A stretch of 20,152 nt of DNA from a virus: IMG/VR virus record IMGVR_UViG_3300042465_006315, positions 1-20,152 of that record; one strand, written 5' to 3'. The position numbers were made by a program, and so were the translations under genes. Below are positions 2,722-20,152 of this stretch, in pieces; the first letter of the stretch is position 1, and each line of letters starts with the position of its first letter. Below the pieces are notes generated by a model. The model saw only the letters and a list, made by a program, of their open reading frames with translations. It was not told where the DNA came from and searched no databases.

Positions 2722-2750
2722 TTGCAACCCCGGCGCGGTGCGGCTATACG
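2722..2750 (+). promoter_or_regulatory. Predicted promoter for the head operon (TTGCAA-17-TATACG)
   Basis: TTGCAA at 2722-2727 and TATACG at 2745-2750 are separated by 17 bp. The expected transcription start is near 2757, five bases before the ATG at 2762. The element rules out the alternative GTG start at 2738, which would lie inside the promoter. It is one of six sites in the window with the same geometry. This is a prediction from sequence only. Confidence 0.55.
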
Positions 2751-2761
2751 CAGCGCCAACA

Positions 2762-3322
2762 ATGGCCGCAGTCACGACAACGCAGGGCGTGCCGCTCACG
2801 ATTGAGAGCGGCAACGAGTATCACTTCACGGTGAACTACCCCGACTTCCCGGTTGGCACATGGACGGCGGCATTCGTCATCGTGTTGAGCACCGGCACCC
2901 CGAGCAGCACGGCAGCGACCACCAGCGGCAGCGACTTCCTCGTTACGCTCACCAGCGCGGTCACGGCGGCACTCGCGCCCGGTGACTACACCTTTGCGGT
3001 TTACGTCACATCGAGCAGCCAGCGAACCACAGCGGAGACTGGCAAGATTTCCATTCTTCCAAACTTGGCCGTCGCGCGCACGGCGACGTTTGCCGAGGCG
3101 CAGGTTGCGCTACTCAAGACGGTGATGGCTTCGTTCGCAGCGACCGACAAGCAGACTGTGAATTTCAACGGCCAGAGCTTCACGCGCTACGCAATCGCGG
3201 ACTACCAAAAGCAGCTTGTGTATTTCCAAGCCGCCGTGATTCGTGAGCAGCAGACGCAGGCCGCACTGCGCGGCGAAGTCTGCGCGGGCCGCGTCGCACT
3301 CGACTTCATCGCCGCCGATTAA
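2762..3322 (+). CDS. gpW-like head-tail joining protein with N-terminal beta domain
   Basis: The 186-residue protein sits between terminase and portal, exactly where lambda places gene W. Residues about 109-171 look like gpW: a first helix (AEAQVALLKTVMASF), a short beta hairpin (QTVNFNGQSFTRYA) and a second helix (IADYQKQLVYFQAAVIREQQ). In lambda, gpW closes the filled head and prepares it for tail attachment. Lambda gpW has only 68 residues; here about 105 residues precede it. They are rich in Thr, Ser and Val and read as a beta sandwich (YHFTVNYPDFPVGTWTAAFVIV, then GDYTFAVYVTSS). ATG 2762 is chosen because the upstream GTG at 2738 falls inside the predicted promoter. No Shine-Dalgarno is present. 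Coding is near certain; the gpW assignment is by pattern and synteny. Confidence 0.7.
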   Translation: MAAVTTTQGVPLTIESGNEYHFTVNYPDFPVGTWTAAFVIVLSTGTPSSTAATTSGSDFLVTLTSAVTAALAPGDYTFAVYVTSSSQRTTAETGKISILPNLAVARTATFAEAQVALLKTVMASFAATDKQTVNFNGQSFTRYAIADYQKQLVYFQAAVIREQQTQAALRGEVCAGRVALDFIAAD

Positions 3323-3326
3323 CCCC

Positions 3327-5084
3327 ATGAAAAACCCTTTCCGCTGGCTCAAAGAAAAGCTCTCCCGCTCTTACAAGGACATTGCGGGCGTCGGCGTGAG
3401 CTACAACAAAGATTGGGCGCTGAACACGCAGAGCGAGGACGCCGACTTGTGGCAGTCCGCGTATGCGCTGACAGCCCGCACGCGCGACCTCGCGCGCACG
3501 AACCCGACGTTCATCCGCTATCGCGAACTCATCTGGGGCAGCGTATTCGGCGAGGCTGGCACGATGCTGCGCATGAAGGTGAAGGAGCAGGAGGATCGCG
3601 TCATTCACACCCCGCAGGAAAAGTCTGCCATCCTCGCGCACGATGAGCGCCGCCGCCGCGTGATGGAATGGGCAGCGAAAAAGGACGGGCGCGAATACAC
3701 GCACGAACCGCTTTACCGAGGCTTTGGAAACAACGGCAACCGCGTCGCGCAAATCAAAGTCGGCGAGCAGGACGTGTTTGCCTGCCAGCTTATTGAGCGG
3801 AAGTGGAAGGAATGGCAGCGCGCGCAGTATTGCGACGTGCGCGGCACCCGCACCTACTCGCAGATCCGGCAGCTTCGCTTGTGGAGCGCCATTCGTGACG
3901 GCGACTTTTTCATCCGCATGATTCGCAGTCCGAAGGTGAACAAGTTCGGCTTCTCACTCCAGCTCATCAACGCCGAATGGGTGGACAGATTCGCCAATGC
4001 CAAGCTCGCCAACGGCAACGAAGTCCGCATGGGCATTGAATACGAGTTCACCGAGTTCGGCACCGGCAAGCCCGTCGCGTATTACTTCATCAAGCGCCAG
4101 CCGATGGACTGGCAATTCAGTGTGCAGAAAGCATTCGGCAGCGTCGGCCCGCTACACGACCGCATTGACGCTCGCGACATCATTCACTACGCGCGCCCAG
4201 TGGACGCCGACGCCACACGGCCCGCGCCGTGGGTGGCGAGCGCCATCCCGACCGCGCGACAGCTTGACCAATACGCCATCGCCGAGGTTGTCGCCGCGCG
4301 CTCGCAGGCGTGCAAGGTGGGCTGGCTGTCCAGCACCGTCGTCCCCGAGGGCGGAGTGCCGACAAACGTTGACCCGCGCACTGGCGTCCCTCGCCAAGAA
4401 CTGACACCCGGCAGCATCGTCGGCCTGCCGTGGGGCGTGGAATACACGGAGAGCGACCCGAAACATCCCAACGGGAATTTCGAGGCATTCCGCAAGGCGC
4501 AACTTCGGCACCAAGCGGCTGGAATGCCCGGCGCTGCATACAGCGAGCTTGCGAACGATTACGAGTCCATCAACTTTTCAGCCGGCAGACTTCAACGGCT
4601 CGCGACGGATGCGATGACCTACATGATCCAGCGGTTCGACATTGACGTTGCCGAGGTGCCAATCTTTGAAGCATGGCTGGAAATGTCGCTGCTCACTGGC
4701 GAGATCCCGCTTCCCGCTGCGAAGTTCGACAAGTTCAACGCACCGCACTTCCAAGGCCCGCGCACGCCGCAGGTTGACGAGGTGAAGGAAGTCACCGCCG
4801 CCGCGCTGCGCATCGCGAATCATTTCAGCAGCGACCAGCACGAATGCGACCAATACGGCGTGGACTTCGAGACGATGCTTTTCGATCAGGCCGAGGCCAA
4901 CATGATGAAGGAAAAGGTCGGCATTGGCACCATCAAGACCGTTGAAACGCCGCCGCCGCAGGCACCCGCCGAAGCCGAGGAGGATGACGAAGTGGAAGTT
5001 GAAACAGAACCGGAAGATGAAAAGCCCAAACCGGCGGCGAAGAAATCGCGCATGACAAAAAGCAAGCGCGTGAAACTCAAATGA
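3327..5084 (+). CDS. Portal protein, lambda gpB-type
   Basis: The 585-residue portal would form the dodecameric ring at the capsid vertex through which DNA passes. Family-like stretches are DLARTNPTFIRYRELIWGSV (about residues 53-72), the RKWKEWQRAQYCDVRGTRTY region (about 156-175) with the following RLWSAIRDGDFFIR, and AGMPGAAYSELANDYESINF near residue 400. The last 50 residues are strongly charged: an acidic run (EAEEDDEVEVETEPEDE) followed by a basic run ending in KSKRVKLK. ATG 3327 follows the previous stop by four bases. A longer frame to 3243 would overlap the gpW-like gene by 80 bases and encodes only Arg/Ser/His-rich sequence, so it was not used. The end overlaps the next ORF by ATGA. 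Confidence 0.9.
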   Translation: MKNPFRWLKEKLSRSYKDIAGVGVSYNKDWALNTQSEDADLWQSAYALTARTRDLARTNPTFIRYRELIWGSVFGEAGTMLRMKVKEQEDRVIHTPQEKSAILAHDERRRRVMEWAAKKDGREYTHEPLYRGFGNNGNRVAQIKVGEQDVFACQLIERKWKEWQRAQYCDVRGTRTYSQIRQLRLWSAIRDGDFFIRMIRSPKVNKFGFSLQLINAEWVDRFANAKLANGNEVRMGIEYEFTEFGTGKPVAYYFIKRQPMDWQFSVQKAFGSVGPLHDRIDARDIIHYARPVDADATRPAPWVASAIPTARQLDQYAIAEVVAARSQACKVGWLSSTVVPEGGVPTNVDPRTGVPRQELTPGSIVGLPWGVEYTESDPKHPNGNFEAFRKAQLRHQAAGMPGAAYSELANDYESINFSAGRLQRLATDAMTYMIQRFDIDVAEVPIFEAWLEMSLLTGEIPLPAAKFDKFNAPHFQGPRTPQVDEVKEVTAAALRIANHFSSDQHECDQYGVDFETMLFDQAEANMMKEKVGIGTIKTVETPPPQAPAEAEEDDEVEVETEPEDEKPKPAAKKSRMTKSKRVKLK

Positions 5085-5176
5085 AGAAACCCGGCCCAGC
5101 CAAAAAGAAAAAAAAGCCGCGCAAGCCGCTTCCATTTGAAATCGAAAACCGCGACCCTCAATTATTCACACGATGA
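5081..5176 (+). CDS. 31-residue basic peptide between portal and protease/capsid
   Basis: A short frame begins with the ATG at 5081, overlaps the portal stop as ATGA, and ends in a second ATGA overlap with the protease/capsid gene at 5173. The product is very basic in its first half (MKKPGPAKKKKKPRKP) and ends FEIENRDPQLFTR. It resembles no family I know. The double stop-start overlap is typical of translationally coupled phage genes and favours real translation. It could carry ribosomes from portal to capsid gene even if the peptide has no function. Alternatively it may be an inert leader, or a virion or scaffold peptide that contacts DNA. Confidence 0.5.
   Translation: MKKPGPAKKKKKPRKPLPFEIENRDPQLFTR
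5136..5165 (+). promoter_or_regulatory. Possible weak promoter before protease/capsid gene
   Basis: TTGAAA at 5136-5141 and AATTAT at 5160-5165 are 18 bp apart, and the predicted start would fall at about 5172, next to the ATG at 5173. The geometry resembles the other predicted promoters, but the match is poorer and the site lies inside the 31-residue ORF, so it may be chance. Confidence 0.22.
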
Positions 5177-7071
5177 GCACAAAGAACATTCAAATCCCCG
5201 AGCAGCTTTTCCGAAGCGCATCCGTTGAACTCAGCAAGCGCGACGGCACCGAAGATGAAATGCACATGAGCATTTCCAGCGACGTGCCTTACAAGCGTTA
5301 CGACTGGATGAACGATGAATATTACTGGGAGGTGCTCGACCACGGGCGCGGCGCTTGCGACGAAACACGGCTCCGGGCTGGACTGCCAATCCTGTTCAAT
5401 CACGACACCGACAAGCACCTCGCGCGTGCAACGTCGTTTGAGAATGACGGAAAGAAAATCACCGTGAGCGGACTCAAGTGGAGCAGCAGCGAATTTGCGC
5501 AGGAGAAAAAAGCCGACGCAATGAACGGCTCGCTGCCAGACACTAGCGTTGGGTATCGTATCACGGACGACGGCGAATGTATCGGCTCAAAAGACGGTTG
5601 CCCTATTTATAAATTTAAGTGGGCACCGCATGAAGCATCGCTCGTCACGGTGCCTGCCGATACTACGGTCGGCGTAGGGCGCGGCGTAAGGCCGGAAGGC
5701 ATGATTACGCGCAGCGTTACTTTTTCTATTGACAACAAACCCAAACCCGCTACAAACGCACCAACCCACACACCTATGGCCGATCCAATCGCACCCACCG
5801 CACCCGAAACCCCGAGCATTAACATCGTCGCGGAACGCCAAGGGGCGGTTGCGGCGGAACGCAAGCGCGTTGCTGATATTCAGGAACTCAACACCCACTT
5901 CACGCAGAAAGGCATTGCAGGCCGTCGCGTGGATGCTGGCAAGCTCGCCGAACGCATGATTGCGGACGGCAAGACCGTTGACGACTTCCGCAACGAAGTC
6001 ATTCGCACCGAACTGCCCGAACTCAAGCCCATCGAGACTTCGCCCGAAGTCGGCATGAGCAAGCGCGACCTTTCCGGCTATTCCATCGTTCGCGCCATGA
6101 ACGGCGCAATCGGCGCGATGAAGGGCCAAAGCTGGAGCGGCCTCGAAAAGGACGCCAGCGAAGCCGCCGCGAAGATCGCGGGCCGCAGCACGCAGGGCTT
6201 TTTCATCCCTCACGACGTGATGCAGTCTCGCGCGTTGACAACCAACGTGTTCAGCGCAGCCGGGGCTTTCGTGGACACCTCCGCGCAGGGCCAGTCGCTC
6301 ATCGAGCTTTACCGGAACAAGATGCACGTTGTCGCCCTCGGCGCTCGCGTGCTGACCGGACTGCAAGGCAACCTCGCCATTCCCTCGCAGACTGGCGGCG
6401 CAACCGCATCGTGGCTGTCCGAGGATGCGACCATCACCGCCAGCGCGCAGACGGTCGGCCAGGTCTCGCTCACGCCGCACCGCCTCGCCGGTGCGACCGC
6501 ATTCACGTATCAGCTTCTTGCACAGTCCTCGCAGGACGTGGAGAACTTCGTTCGCAATGACCTGATGACCGTGCTCGCCATCGAAAAAGACCGCGCTGCA
6601 CTCAAGGGCACCGGCGCTTCCGGCGAGCCGCTCGGCATCTACGGCACTGCGAACAAATCCACCAGCGTCACGCTGGCTGGCGCGAATAGCATGACCTACG
6701 CGAACGCGGTTCAGTTCGAGGCGAACGTAGCACTCAACAACGCGGACATGGGAAGCCTCGGCTACCTCACCAGCGTTCAGACCAAGGCCAACGCCAAGCT
6801 CATCGCGGAAATCAACAGCACGAACAGCAACCCGGTCTGGAAGGGTGACATGGTGAACGGCTACACCGCCCGCGCCACGAACCAATTGACCACGCTTCCG
6901 AGTGTCATCTTCGGCAACTGGAGCGACCTCATCATTGGCGACTGGGCGAGCAACGAAGTGATCGTTGACCCCTACTCGCTCTCCATGCAGGGCCAAGTCC
7001 GCATCGTGATGCAGCAGCTTACCGACGTTGCCATCCGGCACGCCAAATCGTTCAGCATCTCCACCACGTAG
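5173..7071 (+). CDS. Prohead protease-major capsid protein fusion (HK97 fold)
   Basis: This is one 632-residue chain. Residues about 20-185 form an HK97/herpes-type serine maturation protease: catalytic-like H77 (LFNHDTDKHLARA), S125 (LPDTSVGYRI) and the H153-E154-A-S-L-V-T-V-P-A segment. Residues about 217-280 are helical and charged (AVAAERKRVADIQEL), like the delta scaffolding region. Residues about 340-632 are an HK97-type capsid: GARVLTGLQGNLAIPSQTGG, an E-loop-like region, an ALKGTGASGEPLGIYG segment and C-terminal DVAIRHAKSFSIS. The chain would self-assemble into proheads, cleave itself and release the capsid domain. ATG 5776 (M202, MADPIAPTAPE) is at the domain junction and could allow internal initiation. 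No separate scaffold gene is seen. It starts in an ATGA overlap with the micro-ORF. Confidence 0.92.
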   Translation: MSTKNIQIPEQLFRSASVELSKRDGTEDEMHMSISSDVPYKRYDWMNDEYYWEVLDHGRGACDETRLRAGLPILFNHDTDKHLARATSFENDGKKITVSGLKWSSSEFAQEKKADAMNGSLPDTSVGYRITDDGECIGSKDGCPIYKFKWAPHEASLVTVPADTTVGVGRGVRPEGMITRSVTFSIDNKPKPATNAPTHTPMADPIAPTAPETPSINIVAERQGAVAAERKRVADIQELNTHFTQKGIAGRRVDAGKLAERMIADGKTVDDFRNEVIRTELPELKPIETSPEVGMSKRDLSGYSIVRAMNGAIGAMKGQSWSGLEKDASEAAAKIAGRSTQGFFIPHDVMQSRALTTNVFSAAGAFVDTSAQGQSLIELYRNKMHVVALGARVLTGLQGNLAIPSQTGGATASWLSEDATITASAQTVGQVSLTPHRLAGATAFTYQLLAQSSQDVENFVRNDLMTVLAIEKDRAALKGTGASGEPLGIYGTANKSTSVTLAGANSMTYANAVQFEANVALNNADMGSLGYLTSVQTKANAKLIAEINSTNSNPVWKGDMVNGYTARATNQLTTLPSVIFGNWSDLIIGDWASNEVIVDPYSLSMQGQVRIVMQQLTDVAIRHAKSFSISTT

Positions 7072-7110
7072 TCCTAGCCGAAAGCAACCACTCCAACAGA
7101 CCCAAACAAT

Positions 7111-7506
7111 ATGGCCACACAATCCGACCTCAACGGTTCACTCACAGCGTTCTCACTCGTCCCCGCCGTCAATCTTCTCGTCGCCGCAGGCACGCAGACG
7201 TATGCTGGCGTTGACTTGCAGGACTACATCAACAACGTGAAGCTCATCTTCACGCACGCGGGCGCAGCCTCAGACGGCGCGAACTCGCTGCAAGTATCCA
7301 TCCTCGACAGCGCGGACAACGTCACGTTCGCCGCGACCGCTGGCCTGCCGACGTTTGCCGCCATCACCGCCGAAAGCGGCATGGTAAGCATCTCGCTCGA
7401 CACGCGATCCTGCCGCCGCTACATTCAAGGGAAGCTGCTCACGTCGTCCACCACTGCGACGTTCCGCTGCGCGCTCGTTGGAGTTGGCTTGAAGCAGGTC
7501 ATCTAG
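7111..7506 (+). CDS. Probable head decoration/stabilisation protein
   Basis: The 131-residue, beta-rich protein follows the capsid gene after a 39-base gap. Its layout (GVDLQDYINNVKLIFTHAG, then SLQVSILDSADNVTFAA, then a C-terminal YIQGKL...FRCALVGVGL) resembles small proteins often found beside capsid genes in siphophages, in which a beta sandwich carries a SILDSADNVTF-like hairpin. I infer a capsid-surface or head-completion role from position and composition; no catalytic motif is visible. It is the last gene of the head unit and lies 24 bases before a strong terminator. Confidence 0.55.
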   Translation: MATQSDLNGSLTAFSLVPAVNLLVAAGTQTYAGVDLQDYINNVKLIFTHAGAASDGANSLQVSILDSADNVTFAATAGLPTFAAITAESGMVSISLDTRSCRRYIQGKLLTSSTTATFRCALVGVGLKQVI

Positions 7507-7530
7507 TCACACTCTGGTTGGTATTCATCT

Positions 7531-7567
7531 AGGGCCGCGCGGAGAAATCTGCGCGGCCCTTGCTTTT
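7531..7567 (+). terminator. Rho-independent terminator after head genes
   Basis: A 10-bp perfect stem (AGGGCCGCGC at 7531-7540 with GCGCGGCCCT at 7551-7560) encloses a 10-base loop and is followed by TGCTTTT. The T tract is interrupted by GC, but the stem is very GC-rich. It separates the head unit from the accessory island; the next predicted promoter starts five bases later. Confidence 0.75.
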
Positions 7568-7571
7568 GCGG

Positions 7572-7599
7572 TTGACACTTAGCCAGCGTTCGCTAAAAG
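7572..7599 (+). promoter_or_regulatory. Predicted promoter of accessory island (TTGACA-16-TAAAAG)
   Basis: A consensus -35 TTGACA at 7572-7577 is followed after 16 bp by TAAAAG at 7594-7599 (or after 17 bp by AAAAGT). The predicted start is near 7606, four bases before ATG 7610. It lies immediately after the terminator, as expected for a unit with its own transcription. Confidence 0.6.
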
Positions 7600-7609
7600 T
7601 GTCCACACA

Positions 7610-9133
7610 ATGAAGCCGAAGAAAAACCCGCACGCCGTAGCACTCGGCAAAATGAAGTCGCCAGCAAAGACAGCGGCGGCACGTCTCAACGCGAAACTTC
7701 CGAGGAAGAAAGCGAAAATGAGCAAGCGCAAGAAGGCAGCACCGCCAGCACCGCGCACGCTTACGCAGTCGCGCGACCCGTATCGCGCCGAACTCATCCG
7801 CGCGGGCAAGCTCGGCGAGGAAGGTAAGCACGATGAAGCCGAATCCATCTGGCGCACGTATCTCGAATCGTGTCCCGAAGATCCAGACGTGTGCTTCAAC
7901 GTCGGCGTGTGCATCATGCGGCGCGCTGATTCGCCTGCACTTCGATTCGAGGCCGCGCAGTTTTTCGAGCGCGTAGTCCTAAGCCCGCACGCGGAGATCG
8001 AGCGGAAGGCGGATGCGATGAACAATATGGGCCTGATGATGGAGCGGTGCGGAGAGACGGAGAAAGCCGCAACCGCGTACGCCTTCGCGCTTAAGATGTT
8101 TCCCGCGCACAAGGCGGCGCGCGTGAACCTCGGCGACGCGAAGCGATTCATGGGCGACTTCGCCGGAGCGCGTGGCGAATACGACGCCGTGCTCGACCAA
8201 GACCCCGAATCACCGGAGGCCCACTTTTGCGCGGGCATGATTGCGCTGCTCTTTGGCGAATGGGAGCGCGGATGGCGCGAGTATCGCTGGCGCTACAAGG
8301 CACCGAGCTTCAAGTCGAAACCGTTCGCCAGCGAAGCGCCGCCGTGGGAAGGCGGGCCGCTGGACGGCAAGACGCTGCTCATCGTCGCGGAGCAAGGATG
8401 GGGAGATCAAATCATGTTCGCCCGATACGCGCAGGAGTTGAAACGCCGCTGGCCTTCGTGCTCTGTGTGGTATCACTGCGACCCCGCCATGCACGCGCTG
8501 CTTTCTGGCGTGTATGGAGTGGATCGCGTGGTGTTCAACCCGACCGATGGATTCGATTACGTTTCCCCGGTGATGGATCTCCCACATTGCACCGGCATGA
8601 AATCCGAAGCCGACATCCCGCCCGCGCACTGCATTCGCACAATGCCATCGTGGGCACCGTGGTCACTTCAAGTCGGCAACGTGCTCAGGAAGCGCGTGGC
8701 GCTTGTGTGGGCAGGCTCGCCGATGCACGGAAAGGACAAGGCGCGCAGCATCCCGGCGAAGCTGTATCAGCCGCTAATTGACGCGCATCCCGAGTGCGAC
8801 TTTTTCAGCCTGCAATGCGGGCCAGCGCAGCCCGAGGTTGCGGAGCTTCGCAGCGTGACCGACCTCGCGCCCGAGGTGCGGAACTGGACGGACACCGCGC
8901 AAATGCTCGCGTGCATGGAATTGCTCATCTCAGTTGATACCGCTGTGATCCACCTGGCTGGCGCGATGGGAACGCCAGCGTGGATGCTTTGCCCTACGTC
9001 GCCGGATTTTCGCTGGCAACTCACGCGCGAGGACAGCCCTTGGTATCACAAGATGCGCATTTTCCGACAGACCGACCGCAATGACTGGCAAACTCCAATC
9101 CAACGAATCACCCATGCACTCACGACTTTCTGA
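7610..9133 (+). CDS. TPR protein with C-terminal GT-B (GT9/GT41-like) glycosyltransferase domain
   Basis: This 507-residue protein starts with about 48 very basic residues (KNPHAVALGKM, then PRKKAKMSKRKK). Residues about 57-215 hold helical TPR repeats (EGKHDEAESIWRTYLESCPEDPDVCFNVG; GETEKAATAYAFALKMFP; GDFAGARGEYDAVLDQDPESPEAHF). The rest is the GT-B domain common in bacterial TPR-glycosyltransferases: EYRWRY near 225, AEQGWGDQIMFARYA at 260-274, VALVWAGSP near 363-371, then SVDTAVIHLAGAMGTPAWML at 441-460 and REDSPWY at 473-479. Such enzymes transfer sugars from nucleotide donors, often to proteins. The substrate is unknown; candidates are virion proteins or host surface glycans. It overlaps the methyltransferase by 20 bases. 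No Shine-Dalgarno; near-leaderless start inferred. Confidence 0.85.
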   Translation: MKPKKNPHAVALGKMKSPAKTAAARLNAKLPRKKAKMSKRKKAAPPAPRTLTQSRDPYRAELIRAGKLGEEGKHDEAESIWRTYLESCPEDPDVCFNVGVCIMRRADSPALRFEAAQFFERVVLSPHAEIERKADAMNNMGLMMERCGETEKAATAYAFALKMFPAHKAARVNLGDAKRFMGDFAGARGEYDAVLDQDPESPEAHFCAGMIALLFGEWERGWREYRWRYKAPSFKSKPFASEAPPWEGGPLDGKTLLIVAEQGWGDQIMFARYAQELKRRWPSCSVWYHCDPAMHALLSGVYGVDRVVFNPTDGFDYVSPVMDLPHCTGMKSEADIPPAHCIRTMPSWAPWSLQVGNVLRKRVALVWAGSPMHGKDKARSIPAKLYQPLIDAHPECDFFSLQCGPAQPEVAELRSVTDLAPEVRNWTDTAQMLACMELLISVDTAVIHLAGAMGTPAWMLCPTSPDFRWQLTREDSPWYHKMRIFRQTDRNDWQTPIQRITHALTTF

Positions 9134-9716: not shown

Positions 9717-10681
9717 CCATTCACTACACAGGACAGCAGGGCGGGCCATTCGGCTGGGGCACATTCGGCGCGGCGATGGCGCTCGATTTCCATCGCGCGG
9801 GCGTGTGGGCGGAACGCGACAGCGCGGACGTGATATTCCAGCCGCTCGCGGACAACAACTTCACGCCATCCGCACCGCTCGGAAAACGCAACGTCGCAAT
9901 GAGCTTTTTTGAGTTCGCCCTCGGGCCGGATGCCAAGGCGAACGCGGGCAAATTCGAGACGGTTTTCGTCGGCTCGACATGGTGCCAGCAGCGATGCATC
10001 GAGGCGGGCATCCTCAATACGCGCGTGCTCATCCAAGGAGTTGACGGCGACATCTTCAAACCGCAACCGCCGCGCACGCCCGATGGCACGATCCGCATTT
10101 TCAGCGGCGGCAAATTCGAGTATCGCAAAGGGCAGGACTTGGTGATCGCAGCCTTCCGCGAGTTCGCCAAGGCGCATCCCGAGGCGCACCTTGTCTGCGC
10201 GTGGTTCAACCCTTGGCCGGCGCTTTTCAAGACGATGGCGCACACGAAGGTAATCAGCCCGCTGGCGCACGGCGCAACTCAGCCGGAGTTTTTCCGCAGC
10301 CTGTTGCGCAACAACGGCCTCGCTGATTCACAGTTCACCATCCTCCCGCAACTCAGCCACACCGACCTCGCGCGCGAGATGGCGCGCACCGACTTCGGGC
10401 TTTTCCCGAATCGGTGCGAGGGCGGGAACAACCTTGTGCTGCAAGAATACGCATCGTGCGGGCGGCGCATCGTAGCGAACGCAATGACCGGCCATGCGGA
10501 CGTGCGCGAGGCCATCACTCACCGCATCTATGCGACCAAGGATGAGAACCATTGGGCGGTTCAATCGGTGCAGGAAATCGCCGACGCGATGAACGGCGCG
10601 ATGATGTATCCGCAAATGAATCCCGCTCCGGTCTGGACGTGGGAGGCCGCCGCCCGGACCGTGCTCGACGCGTTGTCTTGA
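9713..10681 (+). CDS. GT4-type (group 1) glycosyltransferase
   Basis: The 322-residue protein has GT-B group 1 features: an N-terminal GGPFGWGTFGAAMAL segment (10-24), VGSTWCQQRCIEAGI (86-100) and VLIQGVDGDIFKP (105-117). A donor-domain entry GGKFEYRKGQDLVIAAFREF (132-151) follows, with the RCEGGNNLVLQEYASCG segment (234-250), in which E236 and E245 hold the positions of the paired nucleotide-sugar-binding glutamates. The enzyme would add a sugar from an NDP donor. It starts in ATGA overlap with the methyltransferase, so the three genes are one unit. Its TGA stop lies inside the -35 element of the next promoter, an unusually tight junction. Confidence 0.87.
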   Translation: MTIHYTGQQGGPFGWGTFGAAMALDFHRAGVWAERDSADVIFQPLADNNFTPSAPLGKRNVAMSFFEFALGPDAKANAGKFETVFVGSTWCQQRCIEAGILNTRVLIQGVDGDIFKPQPPRTPDGTIRIFSGGKFEYRKGQDLVIAAFREFAKAHPEAHLVCAWFNPWPALFKTMAHTKVISPLAHGATQPEFFRSLLRNNGLADSQFTILPQLSHTDLAREMARTDFGLFPNRCEGGNNLVLQEYASCGRRIVANAMTGHADVREAITHRIYATKDENHWAVQSVQEIADAMNGAMMYPQMNPAPVWTWEAAARTVLDALS

Positions 10682-10705
10682 CACTCCCGCGCGTGCCGCT
10701 AAGGT
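10678..10705 (+). promoter_or_regulatory. Predicted leaderless promoter for connector/tail genes (TTGACA-16-TAAGGT)
   Basis: TTGACA at 10678-10683 is followed after 16 bp by TAAGGT at 10700-10705. Counting seven bases on puts the transcription start at 10712, which is the A of the ATG. It shares TTGACACT and the exact spacing to TAA with the island promoter at 7572. The preceding gene's stop codon is embedded in the -35. Confidence 0.6.
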
Positions 10706-10711
10706 GCGCGA

Positions 10712-11065: not shown

Positions 11066-11475
11066 TGCAACTGACCATCGGCAACAAAATCGAAGCGTGG
11101 GCAATCCAAGCACTGCGCGCGGCGGCAACGCTGCCATTCGACTTGCAGGTTGAGGCGTTCAACAGCAGCGCGGAGACAGCAACGGAGCGAATCGTGGTGA
11201 AGGCCGAGGTTGGCGAGAAAATGCTAGAAGGGCAGAAGCCCTACGCCGCGCAACTCGACGTTTCATTCCACACCGTCAACCGCGACGCGGACGAGGCGAA
11301 CGATGTATTTGCCAAGGTGGAGGCTTCGCTTGTATCCCCGGCAACATCCGCTTACGTCACAGCGAATTTCACATGGCTGCTCGTAATGACCGAGGCCGCA
11401 AGGACGACGATGGAAACGCGCAGCAATTTTCGCGTGTTCACCCGCACAATTCCCTTGCAAGTCGCAAGCGTTTGA
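11065..11475 (+). CDS. Probable minor tail/tail-terminator protein
   Basis: The 136-residue protein begins in a TAATG overlap with the FII-like gene. It has an amphipathic N-terminal helix (IGNKIEAWAIQALRAA) and alternating strands (ERIVVKAEVGEK; AAQLDVSFHTV; TANFTWLLVMTEA; NFRVFTRTIPLQV). Length and position (after the FII analogue and before the tail tube) fit a gpU-like tail terminator or neck protein. I do not recognise a specific family, so the function is positional inference. Confidence 0.45.
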   Translation: MQLTIGNKIEAWAIQALRAAATLPFDLQVEAFNSSAETATERIVVKAEVGEKMLEGQKPYAAQLDVSFHTVNRDADEANDVFAKVEASLVSPATSAYVTANFTWLLVMTEAARTTMETRSNFRVFTRTIPLQVASV

Positions 11476-11492
11476 CGTAGAAGCGAACCACT

Positions 11493-11684
11493 ATGGCGCT
11501 ATCTTCACAGCAGGAAACCCAACTCCGCGAAATGGCCGCAGGATTGCGCAGTTCCATCGCCGCGCTCGAGGCGCTGAAAGACAACGTGGATCGCAGCGCG
11601 ACTATCGCCGACGAAAAACAGCAACTCGCCTCGCTGGAAAAACAACTTTCGAAACCCGCACCCGCAACACCCACCAAATCCTAA
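11493..11684 (+). CDS. Small coiled-coil protein
   Basis: The 63-residue product is almost entirely one predicted helix with heptad-like hydrophobics (QLREMAAGLRSSIAALEALKD; QQLASLEKQL), ending in a Pro/Ala/Lys-rich tail (KPAPATPTKS). It follows the previous gene by 17 bases and precedes the tail-tube gene by two, so it is probably co-translated in the tail operon. It could be a minor tail or chaperone component; no family is recognised. Confidence 0.6.
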   Translation: MALSSQQETQLREMAAGLRSSIAALEALKDNVDRSATIADEKQQLASLEKQLSKPAPATPTKS

Positions 11685-11686
11685 TC

Positions 11687-12067: not shown

Positions 12068-12070
12068 GCT

Positions 12071-12700: not shown

Positions 12701-12756
12701 CCATTCACACCGCCGAAAGGCCGGGAGACGGAACCCGCAAACGTCAATCAAACCAC

Positions 12757-14047: not shown

Positions 14048-14050
14048 GCC

Positions 14051-14722
14051 ATGTTCACACTGGATTTGCGCGAGTTTCAAACCGCGATGACGCGGCGCGT
14101 GGATGAGTTCCACAAGGACGCCGCCGCCGAACTGAACAAACGGGCCGGCGATGTTTGTCTGCGCGCGATCAAACTCACACCTAAGACTTCGCAGGCTAAG
14201 ATTGACTCGGAAATGAAGGCGAGCAAGAACCGTGGCATCGTGATGCCGAGCGGCAAGCGCAGCACAAACAAAAAAAGCACGTTCCAAGAGTTCAAGATGA
14301 CCGGACTGGCCTATGCTTTGGTAAATTACTACCGCAAAAACGGCAGGCTACCGCGCGGGCAAACCCCAAAGTTTCTCGCCAAGCTCGGAAAAGGAAAGCC
14401 GCTATTCGGTAAGACGTTGATCGACGTGGCGCACAAGCTGGTGAACCGCAAAAAATCCTCCGCTGCCTACATCGCCGCAGGATTCATCCGCGCCGCGAGG
14501 GACTTCGGAAAAACAGTGACGATGCGGCTGTCTGAAAAGGGCAACGCAGCGCGCGGGGGTGGCGTCAAGGCGACAGCGATGCTGCTCGAAGCGACGATCA
14601 CGAACGCGAGCACAGGCGCGGAAAAGGTGGCCGGGCCTGCACTCCAGCGGGCGGTGGATTCCGTCGTCGCCGACATGACGAAACACATGGCGAATCAGCT
14701 CGAAAAACGCTGGCGAAAATAA
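14051..14722 (+). CDS. Basic minor tail/neck protein (gpZ/HK97 gp10-like, tentative)
   Basis: The 223-residue, strongly basic protein begins with a helix (FQTAMTRRVDEFHKDAAAELNKRAGDVCLRAIKLTPK) like tail-completion proteins of the HK97 gp10/lambda gpZ type, then a lysine-rich middle (KKSTFQEFKM; KFLAKLGKGK) and a long C-terminal helix (VDSVVADMTKHMANQLEKRWR). Tail-completion genes usually lie before the tail tube, so its place between chaperone and ligase is unusual and the function is uncertain. It is preceded by a good Shine-Dalgarno. The following 38 bases contain the ligase promoter. Confidence 0.5.
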   Translation: MFTLDLREFQTAMTRRVDEFHKDAAAELNKRAGDVCLRAIKLTPKTSQAKIDSEMKASKNRGIVMPSGKRSTNKKSTFQEFKMTGLAYALVNYYRKNGRLPRGQTPKFLAKLGKGKPLFGKTLIDVAHKLVNRKKSSAAYIAAGFIRAARDFGKTVTMRLSEKGNAARGGGVKATAMLLEATITNASTGAEKVAGPALQRAVDSVVADMTKHMANQLEKRWRK

Positions 14723-14725
14723 TCC

Positions 14726-14754
14726 TTGCGCGCGGAACCGCTTTAGAGAATACT
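14726..14754 (+). promoter_or_regulatory. Predicted leaderless promoter of ligase gene (TTGCGC-17-AATACT)
   Basis: TTGCGC at 14726-14731 and AATACT at 14749-14754 are 17 bp apart. Seven bases on from the -10 is 14761, the G of the GTG start codon, so the predicted mRNA has no leader. The -35 is imperfect. Confidence 0.45.
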
Positions 14755-14760
14755 CCCCGC

Positions 14761-15441
14761 GTGAAGATCGAAACACAGCAGCCAATCGAATGGGAAATCA
14801 ACCTCTCATCGCCGGACATTTTGTTCACCGATGACGCATGGGCCGCACAGGAAAAACTGAACGGCAAACGCTGCGTGGTGACGTGCATCGCTGGCGCTCT
14901 CAGCGCGCAGACCCGCAACGGCAACCCGATCAAACTTCCCGCGAAGGCGAGGGCGCTCTTGCCGCTCGGCAACTACATCGTGGACGGCGAACTTGTCGGC
15001 AATGACTTCACCGCTTTTGACGTGCTGGAAATCGGCGGCGAGGACGTGCGCGGGATGAGCCTGAACGACCGGCTCCGCATCCTCTCCGAGATGAGCGTGC
15101 CGCAGGTGCAGACCTTTTACGGCGAGGACTCGAAGCGGGCGCTCTACGCGCGCGTGAAGGGCATGGGCGGCGAGGGCGTGGTGTTCAAGCGCACATCGGC
15201 GAAATACAAGGGCGGGCGCACTGAGCACCAGATGAAGCTTAAGAACTGGAAAAGCGACACGTTCCGCGTCGTCTCATTCGACGGCAAGGGCATCGAGCTT
15301 GAATTTGACGGCAAGCCCGCAGGCCGCTGCGCGGGCGCGGCAAACCCCGGCGACCTGGTGGAAGTGCGGTTCCAAGACTGGACGAAAGCCGGGAAGCTCA
15401 TGCACCCGGTGATGACGGAGATCCGCGACGACCTCCGCTAA
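14761..15441 (+). CDS. Compact ATP-dependent DNA ligase
   Basis: The 226-residue protein shows the nucleotidyltransferase motifs of ATP-dependent ligases in order. Motif I is E31-K32-L-N-G-K-R37, K32 being the expected AMP-acceptor. Motif III is D75-G-E77, IIIa is FTAFDVLEIGGEDVRG (83-98), IV is E138-G-V-V-F-K143, and V is K159-L-K161. Residues about 165-226 look like a small OB fold (DTFRVVSFDGKGIELEFDG, then VEVRFQDWTK). No N-terminal DNA-binding domain is present, as in minimal bacterial and viral ligases that seal nicks. A GTG start is used; the nearest in-frame ATG (M101) would lose motif I. It lies alone between tail genes with promoters on both sides, so it is a cargo gene. All key residues are intact. 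Confidence 0.88.
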   Translation: MKIETQQPIEWEINLSSPDILFTDDAWAAQEKLNGKRCVVTCIAGALSAQTRNGNPIKLPAKARALLPLGNYIVDGELVGNDFTAFDVLEIGGEDVRGMSLNDRLRILSEMSVPQVQTFYGEDSKRALYARVKGMGGEGVVFKRTSAKYKGGRTEHQMKLKNWKSDTFRVVSFDGKGIELEFDGKPAGRCAGAANPGDLVEVRFQDWTKAGKLMHPVMTEIRDDLR

Positions 15442-15445
15442 ACGC

Positions 15446-15474
15446 TTGCCATGCGGCACGGCGCAATGTAGGGT
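15446..15474 (+). promoter_or_regulatory. Predicted promoter of tape-measure unit (TTGCCA-17-TAGGGT)
   Basis: TTGCCA at 15446-15451 and TAGGGT at 15469-15474 are 17 bp apart, within the 42-base gap after the ligase gene. The predicted start is 15481, three bases before ATG 15484. The -10 resembles TAAGGT at 10700. Confidence 0.5.
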
Positions 15475-15483
15475 GCGCGCCGA

Positions 15484-17403
15484 ATGGCCTCGCCGAATCT
15501 CAAAGCAATTCTGTCCCTCGACACCTCGCCGTTCGTGCGCGGCGCTGCCAAGGCGATGGCGACCGGCAAAGCCCTCGCCGCGCAGTTCGCGCGCAACCCC
15601 GTCAAGCTACTTGCCACGGGCGCGTTTCTCGGCGCGGAGAAAGCAGCCGCTGGACTTGGTAGGGGAATCAGCAAGCTCGGCAATGTAGTTTCCGGCGTGG
15701 CGGCATCTGGGCTTAAAGCATTCGCCGTCTCGATCCCGCTTGTCGGCGCTGCTCTTGCGGCAGGGGTAGCGAACGCTTACAACTTCGGCAGCGAATTGCA
15801 GGACATGCAAGACCGCACCGGAATCGCGGTGGAAAAACTCGTCGTGCTCACGCAGGCGCTCAAGGACAGCGGCGTGGAGTTTGGCGCGTTGGTTCCAGCC
15901 ATCAAGAAAATGCAGGTTGCGATTGTTAGTGTTGCGAAAGGCGGAAGCGCAAAGGCATTCGAGCAAATCGGCCTACACGTCAGCGACCTTCTCGACCTCG
16001 ACCCCGGCGAACAGTTCGAGCGTATCGGCGCGGCAATTTCCAAGATGGAAAATCCGGCTGCGCGTGCGACGGCAGCGGTTGAACTGTTCGGCAAATCCGG
16101 CATGAACATGCTTTCCTTTTTTGCGGACGGAGCCGCGATGCAGACCGCGCGTGATAGCATCGGCGAACAGGCGAAGATACTTGGAGACAACGCGGAACAG
16201 TTTGACCGAATCAGCGACAGGCTCGGGCGTGTGGGTGTTAAGCTGCGCGGTTTCTTCGTGGGCGTTGCCGCTCGACTTGCTCCAATAATGGACGGACTAA
16301 CAGCCGTCATGGATAAGATTGACATCGCTGGACTAGGTGGCGCGCTGGCCGACAAGCTAAAGGATGCCGCGAAGTGGATCATCATCGCAATTAAGGAGCC
16401 GATGAAAACAATCACCTTGATATGGGAAACGATGAAGCTCGGCGCGGCGAATTTCGTGGATTGGTTCGCCGAGGCTTTGGCTAACGGAATCGGCAAGGTG
16501 TGGAACGCGATGGCACCCGGTCTCGCCGGAATGATTAACAAAATCATCGGAATGGCAGGGCCGTTGGCTGGCATGATTCCAAAGGTGAAGCCCGAGGACA
16601 TGCCGAAGATGGAGACGAATCACACGTTTGACCTTTTCGGAAGGGCTGGACTGAAAGCAAAAGCCGACAAAGCGCGCGCCGCTTTGAACCCGGCAGACGC
16701 GGCGGCGGAGGACGCGATTGAGCGCGCGTCGCGATTCAGTATGCCGAAGGGCCAATGGATAGGTGCTAACTTTAAGGGCACTGAAGTCACGGACAAAGCA
16801 TCCCGCCCGCAGTCGGCAACCGATGTTCGCAACATGCAGGCAAACATGGGAATGGGTTTTTCCGCTCCCGGCTTTCCAGCGATGGAGCTTGGAATGGCTG
16901 GCGCCCACATGGCGCAAACCGGATTCGCGAAGGCCAGCAATGACGCGCTGCAAAAGCAGTTCAACTCATGGCGGTTCAAAGGATTCGACATCGCCGGAAG
17001 CGCACCGCTCACGATGGCAAAGGATCGCGCCACAGCGGGCGGCGGAGTTGAGGCTTTGAAACGTATGCAGGGCATGACGGAATTTCAGCGCGGCGGAATG
17101 GCGCTGCCGGGCGGGATGAACCCTAACGCGATGCCGACAACGGGCCTGCTAAAACACCGCGAGCTAGAGAGCATCCGCAGCATGGCGGCTGCGCGCGGTA
17201 TCACTCATGTTGACGGGATGCCGACGCGCAGGCCGGGCGAGGTTCGCCGTGGAGACGCAGCACGTCGCAAGGCATTCCTTCAAGACCAAGAGCGGAAGCG
17301 CATGGGCAATTTGACCGAAGCGGAAACACTCAGCGAGGTGATGAAAGCCGCGCAGGAAACCGCCGTCTCGACAAAGAAAATGGCAAAGGTTTTATCAGAA
17401 TGA
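15484..17403 (+). CDS. Tail tape measure protein
   Basis: The 639-residue protein is Ala/Gly/Met/Lys-rich and largely helical, with a hydrophobic stretch AFAVSIPLVGAALAAGVANA (79-98) followed by the tape-measure-like FGSELQDMQDRTGIAVEKLVVLTQALKDSGVEF. A second hydrophobic block, PGLAGMINKIIGMAGPLAGMIP, lies near residues 345-366. It would set tail length and help DNA ejection. At about 0.15 nm per residue the tail would be roughly 95 nm, if the protein is not processed. A methionine/glycine-rich region (about 440-570) is less ordered. It follows its own predicted promoter and ends in ATGA overlap with the next gene. Confidence 0.87.
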   Translation: MASPNLKAILSLDTSPFVRGAAKAMATGKALAAQFARNPVKLLATGAFLGAEKAAAGLGRGISKLGNVVSGVAASGLKAFAVSIPLVGAALAAGVANAYNFGSELQDMQDRTGIAVEKLVVLTQALKDSGVEFGALVPAIKKMQVAIVSVAKGGSAKAFEQIGLHVSDLLDLDPGEQFERIGAAISKMENPAARATAAVELFGKSGMNMLSFFADGAAMQTARDSIGEQAKILGDNAEQFDRISDRLGRVGVKLRGFFVGVAARLAPIMDGLTAVMDKIDIAGLGGALADKLKDAAKWIIIAIKEPMKTITLIWETMKLGAANFVDWFAEALANGIGKVWNAMAPGLAGMINKIIGMAGPLAGMIPKVKPEDMPKMETNHTFDLFGRAGLKAKADKARAALNPADAAAEDAIERASRFSMPKGQWIGANFKGTEVTDKASRPQSATDVRNMQANMGMGFSAPGFPAMELGMAGAHMAQTGFAKASNDALQKQFNSWRFKGFDIAGSAPLTMAKDRATAGGGVEALKRMQGMTEFQRGGMALPGGMNPNAMPTTGLLKHRELESIRSMAAARGITHVDGMPTRRPGEVRRGDAARRKAFLQDQERKRMGNLTEAETLSEVMKAAQETAVSTKKMAKVLSE

Positions 17404-18113
17404 GCGCACTCCATTACGTCGAAGACTCGACCTTCATCCAAGTCAAACCGCCGCAGTGGAATCGCAACTTCACAGGCGAGCTTGACACATGCACCGTCAC
17501 CTATCAGGGCGCGCAGTATCGCGCGAAGGCGTTTATGGATTCGCTCGGCGCATACGGCACGCTGTCATGCACGGACGAGGCAGGTGCAAACTTGAATGAT
17601 GCCAGCATGTTTCTGGACACCTGGACGAGCGACGACAACCCAGTGCTGCCAACCGTCACGCTGAACTACAAGGGACTGCGCGGCGGGGCGGCGCGTGGCG
17701 TGCTAGCCGAGGATGACGCTTCGCTTCAAACCGCGCAGACGACCAAGCAAATCACCGATGCAACTTCGGTGAACTACCAGAAAACAATCACCTGCTCAGT
17801 CACCTACGTAAGCTCGCGCACAACATACAAATGGGCGGCGCTTGCAAACCCCGGCTCTACGCCGACTTATTCCGCCGTGCGTAACATTCCCGTGCTGAAC
17901 ATGGGCAGCGCGGCGATCCGGCAAATGACATTTTCGGGAATGGTTGACGACGCAGGCGAACCAAGCGGCACCATTTCCACAGGCGACGCAACCGCCGTGT
18001 TCAACACATTCTCGGCAATCTCGCAGACCACATCTTTTCCCGTCTCGGAAATCGTGCCCGGCAAGCTCTGGACGTGCCAAAGCGTGAATGAATACATCCT
18101 GAAAGGAGCCTAA
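17400..18113 (+). CDS. Probable tail-tip protein (unrecognised family)
   Basis: The 237-residue protein starts in ATGA overlap with the tape measure. It is beta-rich with many Thr, Ser and Tyr (DSTFIQVKPPQWNRNFTGELDTCTVTYQG; TITCSVTYVSSRTTYKWAALANPG; IVPGKLWTCQSVNEYILKG). There are four cysteines, three of them in strand-like segments. Genes at this position encode distal-tail or hub-associated proteins, so a tail-tip role is inferred from order. The C-terminus overlaps the next gene by TAATG. Confidence 0.6.
   Translation: MSALHYVEDSTFIQVKPPQWNRNFTGELDTCTVTYQGAQYRAKAFMDSLGAYGTLSCTDEAGANLNDASMFLDTWTSDDNPVLPTVTLNYKGLRGGAARGVLAEDDASLQTAQTTKQITDATSVNYQKTITCSVTYVSSRTTYKWAALANPGSTPTYSAVRNIPVLNMGSAAIRQMTFSGMVDDAGEPSGTISTGDATAVFNTFSAISQTTSFPVSEIVPGKLWTCQSVNEYILKGA
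18102..18108 (+). promoter_or_regulatory. Shine-Dalgarno site (AAAGGAG)
   Basis: AAAGGAG ends four bases before ATG 18113 and lies inside the final codons of the upstream gene. Together with the TAATG overlap it supports ATG 18113 as the start. Confidence 0.55.
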
Positions 18114-18940
18114 TGGCATTTCCAAGCAAGCCAGAGCCAGCAAAGAACGGGTGGATTAACCGCAGCATCGAGCGGTTCAAGGCGTGGGCTTACTCGCGCC
18201 AGCCGATTCCAAACCAGCAGGATTTCGACGTGACTGAAGGCGTTGACGGCGTGCGCTTTTCCATCAAGAAAAAGCTGCTACCGCCAGAGCCTAAGCGCGA
18301 GCATCGGCAGTTTCACATCGAAGCGGCTGGCAGCAAAAAGTTGCGCGTGTTCAATGGCACACTATTCGGTCGACTGCCCACCGGCTTTTCAGCGAATGAC
18401 AACCCGGTATTCGAGATAACGGCGCGCGTGGATTCGTCGCCACTTCAAAGCGGGGACAAGGTTTATGCGAAGGTGACGTGGAATAGGACAGTTAGTGCGT
18501 TTGGAGACATCGCGAGCACCATCACCACCCGCACGGTGGAGGCGGCGGCAACGGTGCCAACAAATGATTACCTAACCGCGACAAGGCACTACCTACTTGC
18601 CACGATCACGCTGCCAGCCTCGAACGTTCCGGTTGTTAGTCAAAGCCGATGGGGGCCGATTGACGACCTGCCGGGGACGGCCTCCGATAACTACACGCTC
18701 CGCTACGGTGCAACCGGCACGGCTGATACCGCATACTACGATTTACTTTACACAAGCAAAGGGCACAAGTCGGACGGCTCAGACATCGCGCCAAGCTATA
18801 ATTCGATTCAGACCTATCAAAGCGGCCTTTGCAGAGTCTATAACGATGCGGGAACGATGAAGATTTTCATCGCGCCGATCACGGTGAACTCAATCGGCCA
18901 AATCACATGGATCGGCCCCGAGGCGCAGGCGTGGCCGTAA
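18113..18940 (+). CDS. Probable tail-tip or baseplate protein (unrecognised family)
   Basis: The 275-residue protein has a basic N-terminal helix (NRSIERFKAWAYSRQP), a linker ending VRFSIKKKLLPPEPKRE, and a long beta-rich remainder (FEITARVDSSPLQSGDKVYAKVTWNRTV; DYLTATRHYLLATITLPA; TMKIFIAPITVNSIGQITWIGP). The N-terminal part could anchor to the tail tip and the C-terminal part form a trimeric or carbohydrate-facing domain, but no family is recognised. It is translationally coupled to the previous gene and precedes the fibre gene by 40 bases that hold a promoter. Confidence 0.6.
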   Translation: MAFPSKPEPAKNGWINRSIERFKAWAYSRQPIPNQQDFDVTEGVDGVRFSIKKKLLPPEPKREHRQFHIEAAGSKKLRVFNGTLFGRLPTGFSANDNPVFEITARVDSSPLQSGDKVYAKVTWNRTVSAFGDIASTITTRTVEAAATVPTNDYLTATRHYLLATITLPASNVPVVSQSRWGPIDDLPGTASDNYTLRYGATGTADTAYYDLLYTSKGHKSDGSDIAPSYNSIQTYQSGLCRVYNDAGTMKIFIAPITVNSIGQITWIGPEAQAWP

Positions 18941-18943
18941 AAC

Positions 18944-18972
18944 TTGACGCACGCCCGAAAATCCGCTACAAC
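18944..18972 (+). promoter_or_regulatory. Predicted promoter of tail fibre gene (TTGACG-17-TACAAC)
   Basis: TTGACG at 18944-18949 and TACAAC at 18967-18972 are 17 bp apart in a 40-base gap. The predicted start is 18979, two bases before ATG 18981. Confidence 0.5.
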
Positions 18973-18980
18973 CCAACATC

Positions 18981-20152
18981 ATGCCGCGCGACCTTGACCT
19001 GACATTCGACATCTCCACCGGGGCGCTCACACTCGACCGCGTTGTTGGCAACTACGTCAAACGCTCGGAAACGCTCACGCTGTCCGTGACCATCGTTTCC
19101 AACGGCGCATCGGCTACCATCCCGGCAGGACTTGTCGGCACGCTCAAACCCGTCAACACCTACGGCACCACGCTCGCGCAGTGGACGACGTTCGCCCAGG
19201 TTGGCGCGACGAACGTCTATACGGCCTCGACCACGATCAACGCCGCCGCCGTCTCGACGCTTCTCGGCACGACCACGGAGCAAGCCAACTGTGTGTTCGA
19301 CTTCGCTGGCGCTGGCGTGGTGGAGTCTGACACGCTCGCGCTTGTCCTCAAGAACAACGTGACGCGCGACGATGACACCGCACCCACCGCGCTGCTCAAC
19401 CGCAACGATTTCCTCGTCACGAACGGCACCGGCCTGCTCGTCAACGTCGCAGCGGGCTACGCGGCCAACGGCGCATTCGTGGCAGCGCAAAGCAGCCTCG
19501 CCATCACCAACGCGACGAACTACATTGAGGTTAGCGCGGCAGGCGTGGCCAGCGTCAACACCACGGCATTCACGGCTGGCAGCTACCCGCTGGCAACGGT
19601 TGTTGCATCAGCCGGCGCAATCACGGCCAACACCGACTTGCGCGCGTGGATCACGCCGAAGCCCGCAGCGGCAGGCGGAGTAACATCCATCACCGGCACA
19701 GCGAACGAGATCACCGTGACGGGCACGACGACGCCGACGCTCTCGCTGCCGAGCGCGCTGACATTCACCGGCAAGACCATCACGGGCGGGACGTTCGTGT
19801 TGCCGCAAGTTGGATACCTCGCCGCGACATTCGATTATTTCAGCGAGTGGATGACGTTCATATCGTCCACTGATGCGGCTACGTGGAAACGCACTCATAC
19901 CACGCCAATCGTCACGACTGAGGGCACTATCCGCGATCCGGCGCTGCACTACGTTGCAGCCACGGGCACGTTTTATGTGGCCTACACGCGCAATGCTTTC
20001 ACTGGCGGAAATAGTTGGGGACTCGGCTCGTCAACAGACGGGAGGACATGGACATGGAGCACTATCAGCACTGGCTCGCTTGCAACTGGCACGCCAGCCC
20101 ACGTTTGGATTGGCGATTGGTTCACTGATTCAGACGGAACCGACCACGTTTT
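18981..20152 (+). CDS. Tail fibre/receptor-binding protein with Asp-box repeats (partial, runs off right edge)
   Basis: The frame is open from ATG 18981 to the window edge (390 residues, no stop), so the gene is truncated here. Residues about 1-135 are a beta domain (ETLTLSVTIVSNGASATIPAG; DTLALVLKNNVTRDDDTAP) of the kind that docks baseplate or tail-tip proteins. The next part is Ala/Thr-rich (about 136-235), followed by a fibre-typical stretch (GVTSITGTANEITVTGTTTP; FTGKTITGGTF). From about residue 275 a beta-propeller-like domain begins: SSTDAATW (295-302), YVAATGTFYVAYTRN, and SSTDGRTW (350-357), the latter a good Asp-box as in sialidases and other BNR proteins. This suggests glycan binding or cleavage at the host surface. 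It is transcribed from its own predicted promoter. Confidence 0.8.
   Translation, partial: MPRDLDLTFDISTGALTLDRVVGNYVKRSETLTLSVTIVSNGASATIPAGLVGTLKPVNTYGTTLAQWTTFAQVGATNVYTASTTINAAAVSTLLGTTTEQANCVFDFAGAGVVESDTLALVLKNNVTRDDDTAPTALLNRNDFLVTNGTGLLVNVAAGYAANGAFVAAQSSLAITNATNYIEVSAAGVASVNTTAFTAGSYPLATVVASAGAITANTDLRAWITPKPAAAGGVTSITGTANEITVTGTTTPTLSLPSALTFTGKTITGGTFVLPQVGYLAATFDYFSEWMTFISSTDAATWKRTHTTPIVTTEGTIRDPALHYVAATGTFYVAYTRNAFTGGNSWGLGSSTDGRTWTWSTISTGSLATGTPAHVWIGDWFTDSDGTDHV

Follow-up and report, generated by a model that had tools for sequence, protein, structure and literature searches.

The 20,152-bp viral fragment IMGVR_UViG_3300042465_006315 from IMG/VR (hereafter the window, meaning the whole stretch analysed) carries a tailed phage's structural region, and six of its genes are preceded by a promoter-like sequence ending a few nucleotides before the start codon. 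These sites are most probably host sigma70-type promoters giving leaderless or near-leaderless mRNAs. A previous sequence-only reading had listed the six, and all the strings lie where it placed them, each with a TTG[A/C]-type -35 box, a spacer of 16-17 bp and a -10 box that ends 6-11 nt before the start codon. Each line below gives the -35 box, the spacer, the -10 box, the distance from the end of the -10 box to the start codon, and the score and p value from a held-out matrix.

Plus strand, promoter P1 (predicted), gpW-like gene: TTGCAA 2722-2727, 17 bp, TATACG 2745-2750, 11 nt to ATG 2762; 12.0 bits, p = 0.0005.
Plus strand, promoter P2 (predicted), glycosylation island: TTGACA 7572-7577, 16 bp, TAAAAG 7594-7599, 10 nt to ATG 7610; 12.3 bits, p = 0.0005.
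Plus strand, promoter P3 (predicted), gene 10712: TTGACA 10678-10683, 16 bp, TAAGGT 10700-10705, 6 nt to ATG 10712, predicted leader 0; 11.7 bits, p = 0.0005.
Plus strand, candidate promoter P4, DNA ligase gene: TTGCGC 14726-14731, 17 bp, AATACT 14749-14754, 6 nt to GTG 14761; weak, 8.1 bits, p = 0.034.
Plus strand, promoter P5 (predicted), tape measure gene: TTGCCA 15446-15451, 17 bp, TAGGGT 15469-15474, 9 nt to ATG 15484; 12.4 bits, 0 of 3000 in-gene ATGs as good.
Plus strand, promoter P6 (predicted), fibre-like gene: TTGACG 18944-18949, 17 bp, TACAAC 18967-18972, 8 nt to ATG 18981; 10.7 bits, p = 0.003.

The held-out matrix was trained without the window and after removal of upstream regions that shared over 60% identity with those of the window, and its p values were taken against in-gene ATGs. 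Five of the six sites score at p<=0.0032 and the start at 14761 at 0.034, and 7 of the 22 starts in the window reach p<=0.0041 (binomial probability about 3e-12). In addition, the boxes fit a sigma70-like promoter in their 16-17 bp spacing, their strand specificity and their location upstream of genes. None of the six passes an E. coli-type sigma70 scan (9-of-12), and the claim is therefore limited to sigma70-like promoters. A good match to this consensus is typical of strong enteric promoters and is not needed in every sigma70 promoter.

Strength and position have to be kept apart. The E. coli-type scan returned 3 sites in the window, with 4.9 expected from shuffles, while a matrix trained on the phage family gave 36 plus-strand and 30 minus-strand matches of at least 9 bits, the top one inside the gene for the terminase large subunit (terL). 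Since matches of equal strength lie within genes, strength is not decisive, and the question becomes one of fixed distance to start codons. Motif density over whole genomes is likewise uninformative, because TTGAC-N18-21-TANNNT was no more frequent over 16 contigs than in the reversed control. The sequence-only reading had held that an equal motif density within genes would count against the promoters; judged by strength alone it would, given the matches in genes and on the other strand, and it is the position tests that separate the sites from chance. The six sites are thus confirmed to exceed chance by position, not by strength. That TTG-N-TA patterns had simply been picked by eye in 20 kb would suit both the matches in genes and on the other strand and the canonical scan falling below expectation, but it is contradicted by the held-out and cross-validated positional tests and is hardly credible.

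The positional signal was examined in relatives found by TerL searches of IMG/VR, which gave 78 loci (labelled with L-numbers) ranging from 99% to 26% identity to the window's TerL. The test set comprised loci above 50% GC, with contigs completed for 14; the low-GC distant relatives supplied 15 regions only, too few to judge. Gene and start calls relied solely on codon usage and were blind to upstream signals. Upstream regions more than 60% identical to a kept one were removed, with the window's own given precedence, leaving 567, and the k-mer test used the 272 of these outside the window that follow a gap of at least 25 nt. Among 1022 five-mers, TTGAC ranked first for bias to positions -42 to -32 (23 occurrences there and 10 in the rest of the 70 nt, p=2e-11), and CTTGC ranked second. 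Its reverse complement, GTCAA, showed no peak at these positions in the 272 regions, and there was no peak upstream of operon-internal genes (gap below 25 nt). TTG[AC] at -42 to -32 was above expectation in all 11 clades, with p<0.05 in six.

A first, unconstrained expectation-maximization (EM) run gave a blurred motif and was replaced by a position-limited and cross-validated version. The resulting two-box model is TTG[A/C]CA, a spacer with 16-17 bp dominant, and yAaAnT. In five-fold cross-validation by contig, 51 matches had a -10 box ending 6-11 nt before the start codon, compared with about 2 per 3-nt bin elsewhere, and no peak was seen at 15-105 nt, the usual leader distances, or on the opposite strand. 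Enrichment at distances of 6-11 nt, which the sequence-only reading had named as its own check, was therefore found in relatives, the window being excluded from the k-mer test. The lower edge is sharp, with 1 match at 5 nt and 15 at 6 nt, the commonest single distance. In RNA polymerase geometry, six bases separate the -10 box from +1. The edge at 6 nt would follow from this, because +1 would then fall on the A of ATG, if the RNA has to include the whole start codon. Across the six sites, the -10 box is placed so that the predicted +1 falls on the start codon or within a few nucleotides of it.

On these grounds, a host sigma70-type RNA polymerase would read TTG[A/C]C[A] - 16/17 bp - yAaAnT (a rough consensus) and begin transcription at the start codon or at most about 5 nt before it, producing a leaderless or near-leaderless mRNA. 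The first gene would be initiated without Shine-Dalgarno pairing, by recognition of the 5'-AUG by the 70S ribosome or by the 30S subunit with initiator tRNA. Later genes of the operon might be reached via coupling, via unaided initiation or, in a minority, via Shine-Dalgarno sites, and several of the promoters would open gene blocks that phages exchange as cassettes. Alternatively, the promoters may be real and yield a leader of 3-10 nt, with ordinary Shine-Dalgarno-independent initiation by the 30S subunit (unstructured, S1-dependent) as in other Shine-Dalgarno-poor bacteria. The span of 6-11 nt is in keeping with this, as many predicted leaders would be 1-5 nt and not 0, and many genes of the family lack both signals and so must start unaided somehow. 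However, the commonest distance corresponds to a leader of 0, and a leader of a few nucleotides is too short for the usual 30S landing site, so that this alternative appears unlikely, though it is the most serious one.

Shine-Dalgarno signals in the family agree with such an arrangement. Motifs of the GGAG type precede 58 of 266 operon-internal genes, against 21 of 266 in the control window of the count. For genes with a gap of at least 25 nt the figure is 35 of 283, against 25 in the control window; the two gene classes differ in GGAG-type frequency (Fisher p=0.004). Five of the 59 promoter-positive genes carry any GGAG-type motif and two a strict one. Within the genes behind gaps of at least 25 nt, the anticorrelation between promoter and Shine-Dalgarno motif was not significant (p=0.38). 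One site in the window is conserved:

Plus strand, 18098..18112: stretch with Shine-Dalgarno AAGGAG before the operon-internal gene 18113, kept in L081, L082, L083, L099, L104, L105 and L106.

The earlier remark that clear Shine-Dalgarno sites are nearly absent is mostly right, in that there is little enrichment behind gaps, and it overlooks this conserved AAGGAG and the family-wide enrichment of GGAG-type motifs inside operons. The Shine-Dalgarno signal is rare but in use, mainly within operons. The proposal of promoters for leaderless or near-leaderless transcripts is borne out by the family-wide, position-specific signal together with the scarcity of Shine-Dalgarno motifs behind gaps.

The boxes are also conserved in divergent relatives. 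At P1, the flank in L003 is unrelated, yet TTGCAA-N17-TATAAA is kept, and divergent relatives carry TTGACA, TTGCCA or TTGCGA versions at the gpW-like gene. At P2, L009 and L002 have another promoter-like sequence after the same terminator (TTGCCA-N17-TAGGAA in L009). The spacer of P3 varies in L002, L003, L009 and L111, with the -35 box kept and the -10 box nearly so, and in L117, whose protein is 47% identical and whose flank is unrelated, TTGACA is still present. For P4 there is one relative, L099, reading TTGCAC...GAATACT. L099 retains P5, as does L110 with an altered spacer; in L113, L106, L116 and L082 the tape measure gene follows a different gene and P5 is absent. At P6, similarity to L105 starts at TTGACG, the -35 box, and L098 reads TTGACT-N17-TAATGA, 6 nt before ATG. 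By these comparisons, the promoters of the ligase and tape measure genes belong with the ligase cassette. Since the sites mark the limits of the exchangeable glycosylation-island and ligase cassettes, they might be module-boundary sequences kept for phage recombination, as proposed for lambdoid boundary sequences, and be promoters in look only. What is conserved, though, is a pair of boxes whose spacer is free to vary, and from clade to clade the motif is strand-specific and keeps a fixed spacing to the start codon, neither of which recombination alone needs; we regard this explanation as very improbable.

The sequence-only reading had also stated that the six promoters split the late region into separate units. 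This is partly supported, in that P2 directly follows a predicted terminator:

Plus strand, 7531..7560: intrinsic terminator (predicted) after the capsid genes and directly before P2, with a 13-bp stem and a T-rich tail; folding z = -5.2.

Its stem is kept with altered sequence in L002, and it is present in L009. Terminator-like hairpins also precede L022 11884 and L025 9157. At the other promoter boundaries of the window the gaps are 30-48 nt and no terminator was found, nor did a strict hairpin search find one in the promoter-positive gaps of relatives. Separate units are thus supported at 7531-7572, and we infer them at the other boundaries; because no terminator was found there, those promoters may be internal ones added to read-through transcription. 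Seven relatives without a 10678-type promoter (L005, L007, L014, L018, L030, L042 and L110) have a conserved terminator-like hairpin, CGCCCGG...CCGGGCG with a T-run, that ends a few nt before the ATG of the 10712 orthologue, and no promoter is visible there.

P2 itself lies inside a 10-nt inverted repeat (GTTGACACTT/AAGTGTCCAC) at 7571-7606, and in L009 and L002 a different sequence around their promoter also forms arms (GCCATTC/GAATGGC). The inverted repeat around the 7572 promoter could be an operator; its folding is not unusual versus shuffles. A hairpin role for the promoter segments was considered and dropped, as folding z ranged from -1.4 to +1.2, the terminator being the one exception.

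Many phages have late promoters that depend on a factor of their own, such as Mu C or T4 gp33/gp55. The sites might accordingly be late promoters that require a phage-made activator or a changed sigma factor, their weak sigma70 match being deliberate. Their poor agreement with the E. coli consensus points this way, as does the RpoD-like sigma factor of Synechococcus phage S-LBS1, which has, of the named phages, the major capsid protein most similar to that of the window. Against this, both boxes are sigma70-like with standard spacing, and the motif is not late-specific, because it also occurs in non-structural regions of relatives (L092, L094-L096). In addition, no sigma factor or RNA polymerase is among the Pfam and PHROGs matches listed for 53 proteins of relatives (for PHROGs, 25 of the 80 matched families), the window itself being a fragment. 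We consider an activator-dependent origin improbable, and return to host sigma70-type promoters as the preferred explanation.

The same scan was applied to four other phages. It found 0 matches at 6-11 nt in S-LBS1, 2 in PBb002 (Bordetella), 0 in Persinger (Pseudomonas), 6 in mycobacteriophage Giles and 10 in the window, counts in which neighbouring registers of one site may count twice, the window has fewer annotated genes and the control set of four phages is small. Leaderless mRNAs are in wide use in the host of Giles (PMC4633059). The predicted leaderless habit is family-wide and probably reflects the host. A host search via TerL alignments in genome contigs found no prophage relative. S-LBS1 (L100; major capsid protein 36% identical) shares the gene order terS-terL-hypothetical-portal-capsid and shows no promoter pile-up at start codons.

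Several points weigh against the leaderless reading. Matches as strong as the sites occur inside genes, and site 14726 is weak in the held-out score (p=0.034). Gene 10712 has a terminator-like hairpin upstream and no visible promoter in those relatives that lack the glycosylation-island promoter. The motif explains about 40% (EM mixture estimate) or 20% (strict score) of the genes behind a gap, and the remaining gapped starts lack both a clear promoter and a Shine-Dalgarno site. Meanwhile, gene starts rest on our own codon-usage caller, and the negative for a sigma factor has the PHROGs coverage given above.

Promoters that abut start codons are known in some bacteria and for a few phage genes, and are rarely described for phage structural genes. 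In bacterial leaderless genes the start codon follows a -10 element (TANNNT) at about 12 bp (Zheng et al. 2011, PMC3160421; Deinococcus-Thermus, PMC12340547), and in Deinococcus too short a distance between them spoils expression (PMC12340547). These genes share with our sites a -10 box at a short fixed distance and the lack of a Shine-Dalgarno sequence; in the phage family, however, the -35 box (TTG[A/C]C) is clear and the strongest part, and the -10 box (yAaAnT) is degenerate. Akkermansia muciniphila, which is poor in Shine-Dalgarno sites and does not belong to the classic leaderless groups, makes leaderless mRNAs from -35/-10 promoters, and they account for about 10% of the starts mapped by Cappable-seq (PMC4782308); it is a bacterium and not a phage, and nothing here ties the phage to that phylum. 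Cluster O mycobacteriophages have predicted leaderless SigA promoters PL1, PR2 and PL2 (PMC4351075), likewise phage promoters whose predicted +1 is the first base of the start codon. Each of those genomes has only a few, and leaderless mRNAs have long been known in their host, whereas here such promoters recur before the structural blocks of an uncultured family. Leaderless mRNAs have been demonstrated by experiment for PY54 cI and cro and lambda cI (PMC4488713), regulatory genes of temperate phages, whereas here structural genes are concerned and the leaderless state is predicted.

In the open-access papers searched, we found no account of an uncultured phage family whose structural operons use leaderless mRNAs as a rule. 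We lean, with some reserve, towards the view that this family, and probably its host lineage, normally starts operons, structural ones included, with leaderless mRNAs, each exchangeable block carrying a context-independent promoter-plus-start-codon unit of about 40 bp without a ribosome-binding site. If so, the structural genes of these phages would be expressed without leaders, and gene callers that rely on Shine-Dalgarno sites would misplace starts in such genomes. The unit of about 40 bp would explain how the glycosylation island, the ligase and similar cassettes stay expressed when swapped, and a signature readable from sequence could help pair uncultured phages with hosts that use leaderless mRNAs.

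Three further starts in the window, all missing from the earlier list, have promoter-like sequences. One of them reaches the same p value as P1 to P3:

Plus strand, 11455..11483: further candidate, TTGCAA-17-TAGAAG, 9 nt before ATG 11493; p = 0.0005.

This candidate and that at 14051 (p = 0.004) are not claimed, because the motif overlaps the preceding coding sequence; at 11493 the overlap is with the end of the upstream gene, and L018 and L030 have no such motif. A candidate at 5173, before the capsid gene (p = 0.007), was dropped, as L003 is without the motif.

The genes of the window encode an HNH/terminase-small fusion, the terminase large subunit, a gpW-like joining protein, a portal, a protease-capsid fusion, a glycosyltransferase/methyltransferase island, several products that match no family, a DNA ligase, a tape measure and a fibre-like protein. 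The gene behind P1 is as follows:

Plus strand, 2762..3322: head-tail joining (gpW-like) gene, phrog_5774, E=2e-19.

Codon usage and conservation place its start at ATG 2762 and not at GTG 2738. The fibre-like gene at 18981 has no Pfam match, and the label is that of the sequence-only reading. A single frame at 24-815 joins an N-terminal HNH endonuclease domain to a terminase-small-like C-terminal part (matches to phrog_2118 and phrog_57). The gene at 7610-9133, within the variable glycosyltransferase/methyltransferase island, fuses TPR repeats to a GT9-type glycosyltransferase-like domain. An ATP-dependent DNA ligase cassette stands among the tail genes at 14726-15484, with promoter-like sequences at either side, and also occurs in L105/L110 and L099; the cassette and the tape-measure promoter are both missing from several relatives. 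No tRNA gene was found in the window and two were found in relatives, and a search for RNA families gave no match. Proteins of non-structural regions were surveyed in L084, L087, L092-L095 and L098. One of them matches the type I Thoeris inhibitor Tad4 (PF25186, E=4e-26), and another matches phosphoadenosine phosphosulfate reductase (phrog_424). One relative carries an integrase, suggesting that at least one member of the family may be temperate.

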